Shown: piece by piece, positions 9,993 through 45,353 of the stretch
Layout: every line of letters begins with the position of its first letter
Position numbering within the stretch: position 1 is the first letter of the stretch
Source of the DNA: an archaeon
GTDB lineage: Archaea; Nanobdellota; Nanobdellia; Pacearchaeales; GW2011-AR1
Direction of reading: 5' to 3'
Assembly: GCA_027343665.1 (NCBI GenBank)
Contig: DAHWKL010000002.1
Location: 1-45,385, forward strand
DNA: 45,385 bases
The notes under the pieces: model-generated
The model's database searches: none
What the model was told of the DNA's origin: nothing
Seen by the model: only the letters and a program-made list of their open reading frames with translations
Program-made: the position numbers and the translations under genes

Positions 9993-10862
9993 ATGAAAAG
10001 ATATCTTTTCTCTTCAAGAAGAACAGGTCATATAGAGAACATGAGACGCCAGAGGGTTAAGTATCCTGAAGTCGCAAAAAAGATAGTTGACACTTCAGAT
10101 ATAATACTTGAAGTCCTTGATGCGCGCTTTCCTGAAGAAACAAGAAACAAGAAACTCGAAGATGAAATAACCAAACAAAAGAAAAAGATAATCTACGTCT
10201 TAAATAAATCTGACCTCCTTAAAAAAAAGAATCTTGATGAGATAAAAGGCTCTCTTTACCCTTACGCGCTTATATCGTGCACAAAAAAGACAGGGATAAA
10301 AGATCTGAGAAATCTTATAAAAATAGTAGCCAAAAAAGTTGAAAACCCTGAGAAGAGAGAGATAAAAAAGGATAGGGTCATATTGGGTGACGATAAAAGG
10401 ATAAAAGTTGGAGCGATAGGTTATCCGAATACGGGAAAAAGTTCTTTATTGAATCTCCTTGCAAGAAGAGGGGCTGCGGGTGTGGGGCCAATTGCAGGTT
10501 TCACAAAAAATGTCCAGAAGATAAAATTAACCCCGGATATCGTCCTGATTGATTCTCCAGGAGTTATCCCGGAAGACCAATACTCAACAATTGACAAGAA
10601 AAAAATTTCAGAGAGCACAATATTCGGCGGAAAAAGCTACACGCAGGTAAACGATCCTGAAATAGTGATCAATGAGATGTTCCTAAAATACAAAGAAGTT
10701 CTTGAAAGATATTACAAAGTCGAAGCAAAAGATTCGGATGAGCTTATAGAAAAGGTCGGACAGATGAAAAATCTTTTCCTGAAGGGCGGAATAGTAAACG
10801 TTGATCAGACTTCAAGAGAGATATTGAAAGACTGGCAGTTAGGGAAGATAAAGGTCCAATAA
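9993..10862 (+). CDS. YawG/YlqF-type circularly permuted GTPase (ribosome assembly)
   Basis: The GTPase motifs are in permuted order: G4 NKSD at residues 71-74, G5-like SCTK near 95, then G1 GYPNTGKSS at 143-151 and G3 DSPG at 187-190. That order defines the YlqF/YawG family, whose members assist large-subunit assembly. The N-terminal basic segment (MRRQRVKYPEVAKKI) matches the archaeal and eukaryotic YawG group. The C-terminal helical domain is complete at 289 residues. The stop lies 52 nt before the proteasome-like gene, with a TATA box between, so the two are separately transcribed. Confidence 0.85.
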   Translation: MKRYLFSSRRTGHIENMRRQRVKYPEVAKKIVDTSDIILEVLDARFPEETRNKKLEDEITKQKKKIIYVLNKSDLLKKKNLDEIKGSLYPYALISCTKKTGIKDLRNLIKIVAKKVENPEKREIKKDRVILGDDKRIKVGAIGYPNTGKSSLLNLLARRGAAGVGPIAGFTKNVQKIKLTPDIVLIDSPGVIPEDQYSTIDKKKISESTIFGGKSYTQVNDPEIVINEMFLKYKEVLERYYKVEAKDSDELIEKVGQMKNLFLKGGIVNVDQTSREILKDWQLGKIKVQ

Positions 10863-10880
10863 TTGGTTCTGACCACGACA

Positions 10881-10892
10881 ATTTTTAAATAT
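10881..10892 (+). promoter_or_regulatory. TATA-like box for the proteasome-like gene pair
   Basis: ATTTTTAAATAT lies with its centre about 26-28 nt before ATG 10914, the spacing expected for a leaderless archaeal mRNA. It supports starting the first gene at 10914 rather than at the in-frame TTG at 10863. Confidence 0.55.
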
Positions 10893-10913
10893 ACAAAAAA
10901 TCAGAGAAAATTG

Positions 10914-11663
10914 ATGACAACGATAATGGGCATGAAAGGTTACGACCCATTAAGAAAAAAAGATTATGTACTTTTTGCAAGCGATTCCAAATGGAATTTG
11001 GGGCATGAAAACACAAAGTACAATGCGAGAAAGATTTTCACGAATTATGAGGGGAATCTTATGATAGCGTATGGGGGAGCAGCAATATTACAGGAGGAAA
11101 CTGCAGATAAACAAGCTGGACATATAAAAAAAGCAGCACAAAGATTTTTCGGGAAAGGGCATAATTCGGCCAAAGAGACGATACATGAGCTTAAGAAACT
11201 TGATAAGATAACAAATTACAACGACCATGCTAATGCCTACATTTTCTCTAATAAGAATGACTTAAGCCTCATATGGTATATGGATGGGGAAGCTTATGCC
11301 GTGGATACAATGACTTTGCTTGGAACAGGAGCAGAAAAACTCAGAAAAAGGAATCTTATAGCTTCCGGATTAAAGAAATTTGATTATGCTGATGAAAAAG
11401 GGATATACTCTGAGCTTACAGGATTATTAAAAACCGCCTTTGACCTCGCGGAAAAAGCTTCTGAGATAGATATATCTACAGGAGGATTTTTCAATTTTGG
11501 TATTCTGACAAATGAAAGTGCCATGATTTTTGAAGAATTCACACCCATGCATAACAGCCATCCGCCGGATGAACTATTTGATATTGGGAAAAAATGCCTC
11601 ATGAATAAACTTTTGGGCCAGGGTGTAAGCATCAAAAGTGTCGATGATCTAGTTTTGGTATAA
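10914..11663 (+). CDS. Divergent proteasome-beta-like N-terminal-threonine (Ntn) hydrolase, paralogue 1
   Basis: Removing Met1 would expose Thr in MTTIMGMKG, like mature proteasome beta subunits. Other beta landmarks follow in order: LFASDSKW (Asp24, place of D17), RKIFTNYEGNLMIAYGG (Lys40, place of K33), LLGTGAEKL (place of GSG/S129) and EIDISTGGFFNFGIL (Asp and S/T-G-G, place of D166-S169). Length 249 exceeds the usual ~200-residue beta subunit, with an added C-terminal tail ending SIKSVDDLVLV. There is no propeptide, so Met aminopeptidase alone could activate it. It could be a subunit of a proteasome-like particle or an amidase or ligase. Paralogue 2 follows after 1 nt, implying one transcript. 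Confidence 0.72.
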   Translation: MTTIMGMKGYDPLRKKDYVLFASDSKWNLGHENTKYNARKIFTNYEGNLMIAYGGAAILQEETADKQAGHIKKAAQRFFGKGHNSAKETIHELKKLDKITNYNDHANAYIFSNKNDLSLIWYMDGEAYAVDTMTLLGTGAEKLRKRNLIASGLKKFDYADEKGIYSELTGLLKTAFDLAEKASEIDISTGGFFNFGILTNESAMIFEEFTPMHNSHPPDELFDIGKKCLMNKLLGQGVSIKSVDDLVLV

Positions 11664-11664
11664 A

Positions 11665-12423
11665 ATGACAACAATAATAGGTGTTACAGGATACAATAAA
11701 AAAGCTGAAAAATATGTCCTCTTCGCAAGTGATTCACAGGCATCCGAATTTGGTAAAGATGACCGACTCACAGGATGCAGATACAATGCAAAGAAGATAT
11801 TTACAAATCTTACTGAATCTATGATGTTTGCATATGCCGGGGATGTGATTTTCCCGCCTAAGAAAAATGAAAATCCCAAGTTAAGGGAAGAGACACAAAA
11901 GCTTATCTCCCTTGAAAAGAGCCCCACGTGGGTAATAAGAAGCAGCTTTGATGAACTAAACAGGATAAAAAAGAATCAATACCTTTTTGCGAACCAGTCT
12001 GATTTGATGCTCCATAGTTATAATGTTTCACCATTCGGTGTCGAGAGCAATCTGAGCTATGAAGGCGCGGGATCAGGCTACGAAAAGATCCCGCCGACAT
12101 TGAAAAAGATTAATCCTGAATCTCCCTGGGGACATGAAATGGGAATACAGATAAGTGATGTTGGAAAGGGGAGATTTCAAAATGTTCTCAGAGAAAGTTT
12201 TGGGATAATATTAGAAGCTGCAAAAAGCGATGAATTCACAGGAGGCCATTTCGACTTTGGATTAATTACAGGCAATGGAGTTTTCATAAAGCGCAATTTT
12301 GCAGAGCTGGACAATAAGAAGAATCCTGACGAACTGTTTACAAAAGGTGTAAAGAAAGTATTAGGAGATTATTTTGCAATATCAAGAAAGATAAAATCAA
12401 TTGATGACTTGGTCTTAAGCTAA
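11665..12423 (+). CDS. Divergent proteasome-beta-like N-terminal-threonine (Ntn) hydrolase, paralogue 2
   Basis: This paralogue of the preceding gene has the same landmarks: MTTIIGVTG start, LFASDSQA (Asp23), AKKIFTNLTESMMFAYAGD (Lys44), EGAGSGYEKI and SDEFTGGHFDFGLI (DxxTGG). Both end in a near-identical motif, here KIKSIDDLVLS. It is 252 residues, with a central insertion rich in Pro and Lys near residues 68-85. Because both copies keep the Thr nucleophile, Asp and Lys, both may be active, unlike an alpha/beta pair. The last 9 bp overlap the convergent elp3 gene. Identity to known Anbu, HslV or connectase groups is unclear by eye. Confidence 0.72.
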   Translation: MTTIIGVTGYNKKAEKYVLFASDSQASEFGKDDRLTGCRYNAKKIFTNLTESMMFAYAGDVIFPPKKNENPKLREETQKLISLEKSPTWVIRSSFDELNRIKKNQYLFANQSDLMLHSYNVSPFGVESNLSYEGAGSGYEKIPPTLKKINPESPWGHEMGIQISDVGKGRFQNVLRESFGIILEAAKSDEFTGGHFDFGLITGNGVFIKRNFAELDNKKNPDELFTKGVKKVLGDYFAISRKIKSIDDLVLS

Positions 12424-13794
12424 ATTCTTCACCATGTAATTCCCTTCAAGTTCATATCCAAGTTTTCTGTAATATTCTCTGACACCAACTCCTGAAATCA
12501 CCGCTATCTTCTTATATCCCGCGTCGGCTGCTATTCTCTCAGCTTCAGCCATGAGCATTTTCCCAAGACCGGTGTGCTGTGAGTCTTTTCCTTTTTCCCC
12601 TAAGTTGAGTGCCTGTCCGTAGACATGGAGTTCACGCACAAGAGCGCATCCGGCAAGTTCATCTATGAAAGTTTCCGAAGGAAAGCGCAAACGAAGAAGA
12701 CCGAAAAGCACATCATCTGAATTAACGACTTCAAGGAAAAATTCTTTGCCCCCGGAAGAATCATATTCGATTGTTTTAATGAGAGTATCAGTTTTCAGTC
12801 CTAATGAATTAAAGCCTATCTCTCTCATTCTTATTTCCTTTACATGCTCATGCTTTTTTCTTAGCTCTTCCTCAACTTCTTTTCTTATTGATGTAGAACC
12901 TGCGGTTCCAATCATCTTTTCCTTTGGGATTTCCCTCATGACTCTCATTATCCTGCAGTAATCAGGAATGATCTTCATCATTTCAAGAAGGACTTTTTTT
13001 ATCTCTTCATCCGTGTAAGTTCTATAATTTATCCTTTTGTAAATTTTTGCCAGAGGTGAATCCTCAACAATCTGACAGGGATAGATTTTTAGTTGGTCAG
13101 GTCTGAAAGATTCATTTTCAAATACGAGTCTGAATTTTTCTATGTCCTTTTCGACATTAGAGTATGGGAGACCAGGCATTATATGATAACCTATTTTGAA
13201 ACCGGCATCTTTTAACCTCTTAGAGGCCTCGATGACATCTTTGATTTTGTGACCACGTGCGATCTTTTTGTAGATTTCATCATCAAGTATCTGCACGCCT
13301 ATCTCAACCCTTGTGGCGCCGAACTCCCTCATCCTTTTTATCTCTTCAACTGAACAATTGTCAGGCCTGTTCTCTATGCACATTGCTACAATCCTGTGCT
13401 CTGCTGTCTCATTCAGCTTCTGCGCTTCTTCCAGGGTCAAAGAATCGATACCATTCAGGACATCGAAACATCCCTTTATGTAATCATACTGATAGTCAAG
13501 TGGATATTGCAAAAATGTTCCGCCGATTATTATGAGTTCTATTTTTTCCGTAGGGTGACCCATTTTGATTAAGGCATCAAGGCGCGAGCGCACCTGCTTC
13601 CTGACATCAAAATTAAGCGCGAGCGCCCGCATCACGGCCGGACTCTTATCAGTATAACTCTGAGGGACAAAATCCCCCCCGGGACAATAGATGCATGTCC
13701 CGTGATTGCATTTTCTTGGCGCGAGAACAACAGTAAGCGGCGTCACGCCTGACTTAGAGCGAACTGGCTTTTTGACTTTGATTTCTGGTTCCAT
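12415..13794 (-). CDS. elp3: Elp3-type tRNA wobble-uridine carboxymethyl/acetyl transferase
   Basis: The N-terminal radical SAM domain has the Elp3 cluster cysteines CNHGTCIYCPGG (C29, C34, C37), followed by PQSYTDKSPAVMRAL. The C-terminal GNAT domain has the HTGLGKMLMAEAERIA acetyl-CoA loop and a GVGVREYYRKLGYE ending. Elp3 starts cm5U34 formation on tRNAs using acetyl-CoA and SAM. In archaea it acts without the other Elongator subunits. At 459 residues it is slightly shorter than the typical ~500-residue enzymes because the N-terminal extension is reduced. It converges with the proteasome-like pair, overlapping by 9 bp. Confidence 0.92.
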   Translation of the reverse strand: MEPEIKVKKPVRSKSGVTPLTVVLAPRKCNHGTCIYCPGGDFVPQSYTDKSPAVMRALALNFDVRKQVRSRLDALIKMGHPTEKIELIIIGGTFLQYPLDYQYDYIKGCFDVLNGIDSLTLEEAQKLNETAEHRIVAMCIENRPDNCSVEEIKRMREFGATRVEIGVQILDDEIYKKIARGHKIKDVIEASKRLKDAGFKIGYHIMPGLPYSNVEKDIEKFRLVFENESFRPDQLKIYPCQIVEDSPLAKIYKRINYRTYTDEEIKKVLLEMMKIIPDYCRIMRVMREIPKEKMIGTAGSTSIRKEVEEELRKKHEHVKEIRMREIGFNSLGLKTDTLIKTIEYDSSGGKEFFLEVVNSDDVLFGLLRLRFPSETFIDELAGCALVRELHVYGQALNLGEKGKDSQHTGLGKMLMAEAERIAADAGYKKIAVISGVGVREYYRKLGYELEGNYMVKNLA

Positions 13795-20400: not shown

Positions 20401-21015
20401 ATGAAAAAAGCAATTTATACAATTTTATTAACAGCCGTGCTGGTTCCTTTGACAGCACAAAACTCAGGGGAAGATTATCTAAAAAACGAATGGAATGACC
20501 AAAGAAAAGAAATCCTTGCGATAAAAGAAGCATTATCAAAGGAGGATATAAGTTTTCAGATTTCTGAAATTCCTGTAAAGAACAGATATCTTACGGTAAA
20601 ATCAATTGAGGATATAGTCGAAAGAGAATCCGGGTTTGATCCCTTTGCGGTAAATAAAAAGTCTGATGCTAAAGGGCTCATGCAAATCACAAAAACTGCA
20701 TGGAAGGAAGTGAATCCAAAAACACCTTATGAGACAAATTGGTACAAGCCAAAAGCAAATCTGGAGACCGGAATAAAGTATCTTGGCTGGCTGGAAAGAG
20801 CGATTTCACGCAATAACTCACGTTGGAAGCATCTGAGCAGAAAAGAAAGAACAGACCAGATTCTCGCGGCTTATAATTGGGGATACCAAAACTTAAAAGA
20901 TGCAAAATGGAATTTGAATGAGGCTCCAAAAGAAACAAAAAGATATCTTGTTTTTATGAATCATAAGGATAAACCTCACCCCGTCAAGCATCGAAAACAC
21001 CAAAAATATTTATAA
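20401..21015 (+). CDS. Secreted SLT-type lytic transglycosylase-like (lysozyme-like) protein
   Basis: Residues 1-20 look like a signal peptide (KKAIYTILLTAVLVPLTA). The SLT (Slt70-like) domain starts near residue 60 with catalytic Glu76 in ERESGFDPFAVN. It is followed by GLMQITKTAW (residues 92-101), NLETGIKYLGWL and AAYNWGYQN, the conserved order for goose-type/SLT lysozyme folds. The enzymes cleave the glycan strands of bacterial peptidoglycan, which archaea lack, so it may act on another cell's wall or on a surface glycan. The tail is very basic (HPVKHRKHQKYL). Bacterial origin by transfer is likely but inferred. Composition looks like its neighbours. Confidence 0.78.
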   Translation: MKKAIYTILLTAVLVPLTAQNSGEDYLKNEWNDQRKEILAIKEALSKEDISFQISEIPVKNRYLTVKSIEDIVERESGFDPFAVNKKSDAKGLMQITKTAWKEVNPKTPYETNWYKPKANLETGIKYLGWLERAISRNNSRWKHLSRKERTDQILAAYNWGYQNLKDAKWNLNEAPKETKRYLVFMNHKDKPHPVKHRKHQKYL

Positions 21016-34438: not shown

Positions 34439-34945
34439 ATGGACAGAGAGAAATTACCTTTTCGCAAAAATTGTGAGGGATATTTCATTGATGACAAAGG
34501 TAAAGTTTTAGCTAAAGATAGCGGAAAGGGATTTCTTATTTTCCCCGGAGGAGGTATAGATGAAAATGAGACTCCTGAAGAAGGAATGTTAAGAGAAGCC
34601 TTCGAGGAAACAGGGGTATCAATAAGCGGAAAGTTGAAAGAATTGGGAATTCTGAATATTTTGTGGGGTCCAGATTGGGCAAAAACAGAAAAGCAAAAGA
34701 AAAGATATCAAAAGTACAAAGGCGATGAGATGCATTTCTTTTTGGGGAAAATAAAAAGCATTGGGCAACCATCCGGGGATCCGGAAAATCCTGGAGAGGA
34801 CGATTCATGGGGAGAAGACAAATTAATGCCCGTGCAGAAGGCAATAGATTTAATAGAAAAAAACAAACCCTTCCCAAAAGACACTGAAGAATATTATCAG
34901 AAACAATTGAATTTTTTAAGCCAGATAGTCAAAAACCTTATTTGA
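34439..34945 (+). CDS. NUDIX hydrolase
   Basis: The NUDIX box reads GGGIDENETPEEGMLREAFEETGV (positions about 39-61), matching GX5EX7REUXEEXGU with the metal-binding Glu set. The N-terminal half carries YFIDDKGKVLAK and the C-terminal half a long helix. Members sanitise nucleotides or cleave NDP-sugars; the substrate cannot be told. It is 168 residues, and the last 8 bp overlap the convergent MinD-like gene. Confidence 0.85.
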   Translation: MDREKLPFRKNCEGYFIDDKGKVLAKDSGKGFLIFPGGGIDENETPEEGMLREAFEETGVSISGKLKELGILNILWGPDWAKTEKQKKRYQKYKGDEMHFFLGKIKSIGQPSGDPENPGEDDSWGEDKLMPVQKAIDLIEKNKPFPKDTEEYYQKQLNFLSQIVKNLI

Positions 34946-35732
34946 AGACATTACTGTAGAATAATTCCCGGTTAACTTCTTGTTTTCTTGGAGAAATTGT
35001 ATGGAATATTTCTCTCCATCTCATTGGGTTATACTTTTCACCAGCAATACAAGCTGCGAGTTTTTTATATTCAAAACTTGAATTTGAATTGGGCTTGAAA
35101 TAAGTCGATGGAATAAAGTGAGCTTGAGATTTAAGAACATTAACATCATGAGGAATAACAGCAAGAACAGGAACTTCACTTGTCTTTTCTATATTTTCAA
35201 GGCTCAACTCAAAATCTTTACCATAAACTTTATTGATTATCACTCCGGAAATAGGAGTCCCTCTTTTTTTTGCAAGAGCAATAGCTTTCAGGGTCATGGT
35301 AAGGGTAGAAAAATCCGGCGTTGAGACAACAAAAAGTTCATCTGAAGATAACATTGTTGCAAGAGTTTCATTATTCAAGGATGGAGAGGAATCAAGTATA
35401 ACAAAGTCATATTTATCTTTTATCTTTTTTACCTTGTCCTTGAGTTTAAGAGGGTCAAACTGCTTTTTGGGGTAAACCGAAGCAGGGATTATATCAAAGC
35501 CTTCAAGCGGATGGATAACATCTTCTATATTCGCATCATCAGTCAGAACATGATGAATCGTTTTAACCGGTTCAATTACATTAAGATGTATCCCAAGATT
35601 AGGTGCAGAAAAATTCGCGTCAATAATCAGGACTTTTTTTCCAAAAGACGCGAGAGCGGCAGCAAGCGAAACTGCACTGGTTGTTTTACCGACACCACCT
35701 TTTATGCTTAGAATTCCTATCACCTTCCCCAT
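34938..35732 (-). CDS. MinD/ParA-family ATPase, copy 1
   Basis: The deviant Walker A motif SIKGGVGKTTSAV starts near residue 10, with DANFSAPNLGIHLN (switch I-like region) and FVILDSSPSL (Walker B-like). These are MinD/ParA hallmarks for membrane- or DNA-based positioning. A frame is open from 35807, but TATA-like TTTAAATA lies about 26 nt before ATG 35732, so I start there (264 residues). Its relative is at 44580. The C-terminal 40 residues contain a basic segment (RWREIFHTISPRKQEVNREL) that could be an amphipathic membrane or DNA contact. Confidence 0.82.
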   Translation of the reverse strand: MGKVIGILSIKGGVGKTTSAVSLAAALASFGKKVLIIDANFSAPNLGIHLNVIEPVKTIHHVLTDDANIEDVIHPLEGFDIIPASVYPKKQFDPLKLKDKVKKIKDKYDFVILDSSPSLNNETLATMLSSDELFVVSTPDFSTLTMTLKAIALAKKRGTPISGVIINKVYGKDFELSLENIEKTSEVPVLAVIPHDVNVLKSQAHFIPSTYFKPNSNSSFEYKKLAACIAGEKYNPMRWREIFHTISPRKQEVNRELFYSNVFK

Positions 35733-35847
35733 AACAAAATAAAATAAATGTTGTTTAAATACCTTATCTATTTTGAATTCATATGAAATCACACACATAT
35801 AAAGCAAAACTAAAAACTTTTAAACGAAACTCGTTAAGTATATTTAT

Positions 35848-44579: not shown

Positions 44580-45353
44580 TTATTTTCCGCCGATAAGATT
44601 CCTTATTTTATCCATTAAGGTCTCCCGATCTTTATCCGAATTGTAATCTATGTCCATAAGTCTTGCTGCAATCTCTTTATATGCTCTTGCCGGCTTTGAC
44701 TTGGGATAAAGATGAACAAGAGGATTTTTCCTCCTAAGTGAATCCTGGAAAAGATCATCTTCCGGAATCATGCCAAGCACCGGAACTTCAAGCATATCTT
44801 TAACAGTTTCAGGAGGCAACTCATATTTGTTCTTCTTAACACGCGTCATTATAACCCCAGTTATGGGCTTTTTAAGTCCCTGGGCCACTTTTATTGTCTT
44901 GAGAGCATCCGTTATCGCAGGCATCTCTGGATTAGAAACAAGGACTACTTCATCAGCAATCTCCATTGCACTCATCGCTTCTTTCCCAAGTCCTGCAGAA
45001 CAGTCAAGGATCACATATTCAGCAAGATTTTTGAAATCATTTTTGAATTCCTTGAGTTTTTCAAATTTAAGTTTTTTTAGTTCCTTAACCGAAAGTGAAG
45101 ATGGAATTATCTTTATTCCTGACTCATGAGAATATACTGCTTCTTCAGGCTGTGCTTTCCCCTGGAGGACATGATTAAGATTTATAGGAACTTCCGGAGA
45201 ATTAAGATGTATTCCGACATTCGGCGTGGACATATTCGCGTCTATAATAAGGACATCTTTTCCGAAATGTTTCATAGCGGTTCCAAGATTTATCGCTGTG
45301 GTCGTTTTACCGACACCACCTTTCCCAGACGCGATCACTATCATTCTTTTCAT
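44580..45353 (-). CDS. MinD/ParA-family ATPase, copy 2
   Basis: The Walker A-like GKGGVGKTTTAINLG starts near residue 10 with DANMSTPNVGIHLN and YVILDCSAGLGKEA, plus VPVLGMIPEDD in the effector region. The overall pattern matches archaeal MinD and copy 1 at 34938. It ends in a helix DKIRNLIGGK that may contact a membrane. ATG 45353 overlaps the upstream stop (ATGA). Role in division or positioning is inferred from the family. Confidence 0.85.
   Translation of the reverse strand: MKRMIVIASGKGGVGKTTTAINLGTAMKHFGKDVLIIDANMSTPNVGIHLNSPEVPINLNHVLQGKAQPEEAVYSHESGIKIIPSSLSVKELKKLKFEKLKEFKNDFKNLAEYVILDCSAGLGKEAMSAMEIADEVVLVSNPEMPAITDALKTIKVAQGLKKPITGVIMTRVKKNKYELPPETVKDMLEVPVLGMIPEDDLFQDSLRRKNPLVHLYPKSKPARAYKEIAARLMDIDYNSDKDRETLMDKIRNLIGGK

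Follow-up and report, generated by a model that had tools for sequence, protein, structure and literature searches.

The window analysed here, a 45,385-nucleotide stretch of archaeal contig DAHWKL010000002.1, carries two adjacent genes whose products (copies A and B, Table 1) are 31–32% identical over their full length (BLASTP, E 1e-28), in keeping with the original prediction of a tandem of MTTI-starting paralogues at this site. The closest other carrier of the pair is Nanoarchaeota archaeon FK5.bin88 (hereafter G008), a metagenome assembly from the same genus (JAJZAH010000002.1), where the gene order is unchanged and the GTPase and Elp3-like genes again flank the pair. Between the two genomes copy A is 61% and copy B about 45% identical, and the gap from A to B is 3 nt in G008 as against 1 nt in the window. 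The window's Elp3-like gene, which converges on the pair, shares 9 nt at its stop with the 3' end of copy B.

Table 1. Features of the paired locus in the window; residue names in brackets give the proteasome numbering of the putative equivalents.
Feature	Coordinates	Strand	Details
YlqF/RbgA-like GTPase, upstream flank	9993..10862	+	85% identical to its G008 counterpart; outside the system
TATA-like element TTTAAATA	10884..10891	+	-30 to -23 relative to the copy A ATG; from sequence only
Copy A, proteasome-like Ntn-Thr hydrolase (predicted)	10914..11663	+	249 aa, starts MTTIMG
Gap from copy A stop to copy B ATG	11664..11664	+	1 nt; co-transcription likely
Copy B, paralogue of copy A	11665..12423	+	252 aa, starts MTTIIG
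Elp3-like tRNA-modifying enzyme, convergent downstream flank	12415..13794	-	outside the system
Copy A, predicted active site			Thr2 (T1), D24 (D17), K40 (K33), G55 (G47)
Copy A, further conserved residues			G137-T-G139 (S129 loop), D186 (D166), T189 (S169), GG190-191
Copy B, predicted active site			Thr2, D23, K44, G59
Copy B, further conserved residues			G136-S-G138, D189, T192, GG193-194

The start codons of both copies are secure, since the G008 orthologue of copy A has its frame blocked only a few codons 5' of the ATG, and copy B has no more than about three open codons upstream. The closed G008 frame also ruled out a TTG start further upstream for copy A, which would have given a 266-residue protein. 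A TTAAATA element lies at -28 of the G008 copy A orthologue, and the fact that both species have a TATA-like box there (about -28) suggests a leaderless transcript; for the leaderless operon proposed earlier this box is the sole support, and it is one read from sequence. The slot between the GTPase and Elp3-like genes (window 10862–12415; L108–L113) is variable across the genus. In six other members it measures about 0.3–1.25 kb, has convergent neighbours and holds unrelated small genes, for example one for an 80-aa CLHQVSxxGxxLP protein seen in several species, and an attempt to read function from the neighbours was dropped on this account. The genes adjoining the pair offer no functional hint, and no unfoldase was seen near it. 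Elsewhere in the window, an ORF at 20401–21015 joins an apparent signal peptide to an SLT-like lytic-transglycosylase sequence (ESGFDP..AKGLMQI, recognized by eye), which is to our knowledge unusual for an archaeon, and two MinD/ParA-like ATPases are encoded at 34938–35807 and 44580–45353 of this reduced genome.

Searches with the pair alone were largely silent. None of the four pair proteins (copies A and B of the two species) matched PF00227 in Pfam at the gathering cut-off, and single-sequence searches gave no usable match in the PDB for either window copy, nor in phage collections, plasmid collections or viral contigs. Pfam matches to DUF1771, DUF4930, LAMTOR5 and the like were rejected as below cut-off and inconsistent between orthologues. 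Single-sequence or four-row queries against other genomes returned weak matches, of which a glycosyltransferase with TPR repeats (L008), a DNA gyrase A (L018) and a second glycosyltransferase (L057) were inspected and judged to be chance; another (L056) was genuine, and from it a tandem triple in the genome G453 was reached. Together with L004, a further proteasome-like gene of the window's own genome, this triple seeded an alignment (A4) of 25 rows, namely the four pair proteins and 21 others that likewise start Met-Thr and come from archaea of the same phylum, with no psmA or psmB among them. By our reading, such proteins occur in about 18 of 371 phylum genomes, the remaining matches being ordinary psm subunits.

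A profile made from the 21 non-pair rows (Z=1000; background of 2000 shuffled sequences) recovered all four pair proteins, at E 2.8e-11 and 7e-11 for copy B of the window and of G008, and 3.1e-8 and 1.4e-7 for the respective copies A. The best of the 2000 shuffles reached E 5.9e-3, and the link between pair and family therefore exceeds chance. A local psmB profile, in turn, reached the pair at a best E of 0.05, inside the shuffled background. In profile–profile comparison the pair matched the family with 98.1% probability over 195 columns and the family matched psmB with 99.6%, while pair against psmB gave merely 52%; the pair's proteasome link thus runs through the Met-Thr family. The A4 profile found proteasome beta chains in the PDB at about 1e-15, the Pfam Proteasome family detects 17 of the 25 aligned proteins (neither window copy among them), and TIGR03634 (psmB) is the nearest curated family for 18 of the 25 (best E 1.4e-9). 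Neither Pfam nor NCBIfam holds a curated family specific to the Met-Thr-starting proteins.

The columns invariant throughout A4 are M1, T2, D23, K44, G59, G136, G138 and D189 (copy B numbering), which, from T2 on, established proteasome biochemistry equates with Thr1, Asp17, Lys33, Gly47, the glycines on either side of Ser129, and Asp166. Equivalents of Thr1, Asp17, Lys33 and Gly47, by which membership of the proteasome-like family was judged, are present in 25 of 25 sequences, both copies included. In the pair, Ser or Thr occupies the Ser129 and Ser169 positions, and all four pair proteins keep the full catalytic set. The Thr, Asp17-like and Lys33-like residues and the GTG/GSG and DxxTGG sites are thus as first described, being invariant or conservatively kept in the 25 relatives, with Thr, Asp and Lys all conserved in the orthologues, and we infer that both copies are enzymatically active. 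Their extra length relative to beta subunits, also remarked on at the outset, could be traced to three features: an S1–S2 hairpin longer by about six residues, a middle part that varies, and some 40 residues of C-terminal tail. The single-gene Met-Thr proteins such as L004 resemble the pair in their MT(T/A/S) start without a propeptide, invariant catalytic set and helical C-terminus. They differ in being mostly solitary genes and in the tail: the shared C-terminal ending of the two copies, DDL(V/I), is conserved in four of four pair proteins but lacking in most members of the wider family.

Structure prediction from the four pair rows was uninformative (AF2, pLDDT 41), and copy A is without a confident model of its own. 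With A4 as input, and hence no proteasome rows, copy B gave a model of pLDDT 85.3 and pTM 0.85. Its predicted strands (4–10, 16–23, 25–29, 35–41, 45–47 and 53–59) are followed by helices 71–81 and 88–101, further strands, a long helix (171–188), strands 195–201 and 206–214, and C-terminal helices 221–237 (17 residues) and 246–251. All 50 of the 50 matches listed by Foldseek against the PDB were 20S proteasome chains (best E 1.7e-9; TM by target about 0.6–0.7), and against viral models the best matches were HslV-like and proteasome-like phage proteins. Copy B is accordingly predicted to have the Ntn fold, and the S1–S11 sandwich with flanking helices can be assigned to it from the model and to copy A by homology only. 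Together with the pair-free profile, the model upholds the original identification of divergent, active-looking, beta-like Ntn-Thr hydrolases in a two-gene operon. Neither of the two findings named beforehand as refuting it, a structure without the Ntn fold or loss of Thr, Asp and Lys in orthologues, was made. In the 20S particle, H3 and H4 are described as the main contacts between beta rings (PMC8665760). The region after the GSG loop of the copy B model (137–161; H3) is short and partly disordered and, given that role, an ordinary double ring appears doubtful for the pair.

The model also bears on several known enzymes. Connectase shares with the pair a proteasome-like Thr hydrolase fold, an archaeal host and a narrow distribution, and a kinship with it had been suggested. 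That a proteasome-like Thr nucleophile can ligate is established for connectase (cited in PMC8665760), and small single-purpose families can carry such specific functions, so that the pair could be conceived of as a connectase-like protein ligase or transpeptidase. Connectase is described, however, as lacking H1/H2 and having a two-helix insertion between S3 and S4 (PMC8665760). The copy B model is the opposite, with helices 71–81 and 88–101 present and S3 and S4 joined by a short turn, and no connectase family match was found in Pfam; we regard ligation as a very slim prospect. A relation to Anbu, suggested alongside, is not supported. Like the pair, Anbu is proteasome-like, has Thr as its first residue and carries an extra helix at the C-terminus, but Table 1 of PMC8665760 lists it as bacterial only, and the pair has no curated Anbu match. 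Anbu forms a split ring via a long C-terminal H5 coiled coil; in the copy B model the C-terminal helix 221–237 spans 17 residues.

HslV has the same Met-Thr start and Ntn-Thr chemistry, and weak matches do occur, to copy A in NCBIfam (E 0.018–0.035) and to copy B from an HslV-like PHROG (E 0.0011). The NCBIfam scores of 14.7 and 13.8 bits fall far short of cut-offs of 137 and 157.75 bits, respectively, only two of the 25 family members match HslV, and the pair has extra C-terminal helices. No HslU stood out beside the pair or among the window's large ORFs. We consider it unlikely that the pair is HslV.

The host assembly (0.81 Mb, 10 contigs, completeness estimated at 88%) has a proteasome of its own: the search for canonical subunits called for by the original prediction located psmA and a propeptide-bearing psmB elsewhere in the genome. 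No PAN-type ATPase was found above cut-off in this roughly 88% complete genome. The best AAA matches to PAN were two long neighbouring ORFs (774 and 747 aa; contig C4 of the assembly, 106781–111421), each with two domains, which we read as CDC48-like; the canonical proteasome may here rely on CDC48. Nearly all of 112 sampled family genomes have two PF00227 matches and some have one or three; the window genome is the only one with four, the pair being excluded from the count. L004:1381–2064 (C4, about 137 kb) encodes the single-gene Met-Thr protein mentioned above, with an archease-like gene nearby; a syntenic orthologue (48% identical) is present in G008, and several other genomes have relatives. 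Another divergent proteasome-like protein, at L003:1387–2082 (contig C3, about 293.8 kb; PF00227 E 4e-8), has a very long tree branch and lies directly after two ParB-like genes, adjoining a DNA-methyltransferase-like ORF; it may belong to a mobile or plasmid-partition module.

A maximum-likelihood tree built from 46 proteins (midpoint-rooted for drawing only) unites the four pair proteins in a single clade (100/100), within which the two copies A (100/99) and the two copies B (97/82) group together. By this topology, A and B had already arisen by duplication when the two species diverged. The pair falls on the Met-Thr family side, opposite psmA/psmB (91/91); the branch leading to it is long (1.8 changes per column), and the tree sets this side, not the exact position within the family. 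With psmA and psmB there to be joined, and with their beta-like fold and catalytic set, A and B might be thought to enter the 20S particle as accessory or alternative beta subunits, after the manner of the immunoproteasome or of beta-1/beta-2 variants. Their placement in the tree speaks against this, as do a psmB profile that finds the pair no better than it finds shuffles, the 52% pair–psmB probability, the missing propeptide, the degenerate H3 and the different C-terminal tail, and we hold it to be very unlikely. Fold and catalytic residues are indeed common to psmB and the pair, but psmB carries a propeptide and forms rings with psmA, while the pair starts Met-Thr and groups away from psmB. 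On the evidence of alignments, tree and model, the pair has the proteasome fold, a complete catalytic set in both copies and an ancestry separate from psmA/psmB; it makes up a divergent subfamily of two genes within the proteasome-like family.

The pair is present in two genomes only, those of the window and of one congener (G008), among 181 family genomes and 371 sampled from the phylum. With two carriers, and unrelated genes in the slot of other genus members, it is either a lineage-restricted gain or a much-lost locus. Tandem sets are rare in the family, the one triple being that of G453, a class-level relative (L071:5950–8707, contig C45), whose three genes encode proteasome-like proteins of about 296, 283 and 282 aa, all starting Met-Thr, and are flanked by glutamate-synthase-like genes on one side and a DRG-like GTPase on the other. 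The first of these has a GxDPxxGKPY hairpin resembling GYDPLRKKDY of copy A.

Between the window and G008, divergence at third codon positions is 0.56 (A) and 0.64 (B), as against 0.18 and 0.33 at second positions; dN is 0.29 and 0.57, respectively, with dS saturated. Second-position divergence far below that at third positions marks both copies as constrained proteins, and by this measure the pair is under purifying selection with strong coding constraint. The existence of only two carriers and the fast evolution of copy B (45% identity where the GTPase has 85%) leave room for a relaxed or shifting function. That A and B are decaying duplicates without an enzymatic role, to which the patchy distribution and fast B divergence might point, is nonetheless extremely unlikely in our estimation, with frames intact in two species, a strong synonymous excess and every catalytic residue kept in four of four proteins.

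We propose that A and B are co-expressed N-terminal-threonine hydrolases separate from the host's own 20S proteasome. A methionine aminopeptidase, for which the genome has a gene, would remove Met1 of both; Thr2 would then at once be the nucleophile, and a propeptide would be unneeded. The Asp17 and Lys33 equivalents would activate Thr2, the Gly47 equivalent would form the oxyanion hole, the Asp166 and Ser169(Thr) equivalents would hold the free amino group, and Thr2 would attack the amide. Since the two genes have stayed together in one operon and neither has lost any of its active site, the products most likely act jointly, as a possibly hetero-oligomeric, ATP-independent peptidase or amidase with substrates of its own rather than as replacement subunits of the 20S particle. 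Taken as a whole, with its presumed assembly and substrate, this dedicated joint hydrolase is a proposal on which we are evenly divided. A more specific form of it, a two-component hetero-oligomeric particle made of two kinds of catalytic subunit, neither of them alpha-like, working beside a complete 20S, is unlikely as matters stand.

It is also possible, though less likely, that A and B are two separate enzymes, monomers or homo-oligomers, acting on different small or peptide substrates and together merely through tandem duplication. Their identity of only 32%, and their differences after D17 and in the central region, would fit this, as would the single-copy relatives in the same genome (L004) and in others, the existence of which means that one copy can function alone. 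Less easily accommodated are the gene order and 1–3 nt spacing kept in both species, and the same DDL(V/I) tail kept by both copies.

Additional proteasome-like enzymes are described as widespread in prokaryotes by Fuchs, Alva and Lupas (2021; PMC8665760), who list 22 uncharacterized proteasome-like families, several of them archaeal (WPH, ACC, PHI), report no context hints for these and expect more to exist. Like the pair, the WPH, ACC and PHI families are divergent, propeptide-free, equipped with Thr1/Asp17/Lys33/Gly47 and found alongside a proteasome, and for WPH and ACC C-terminal coiled-coil contacts are predicted (PMC8665760). The wider Met-Thr family may be one of these families, the comparison resting on their published descriptions. 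The main text of PMC8665760 makes no mention of tandem active pairs, and a two-gene subfamily is unreported both there and in the later papers found. The pair adds to the evidence that archaea with small genomes retain additional proteasome-like enzymes of enigmatic purpose. Models of proteasome ancestry ask how a single self-assembling Thr hydrolase gave rise to subunits of two types, and a separate duplication with the active site retained in each copy offers them an independent test case.
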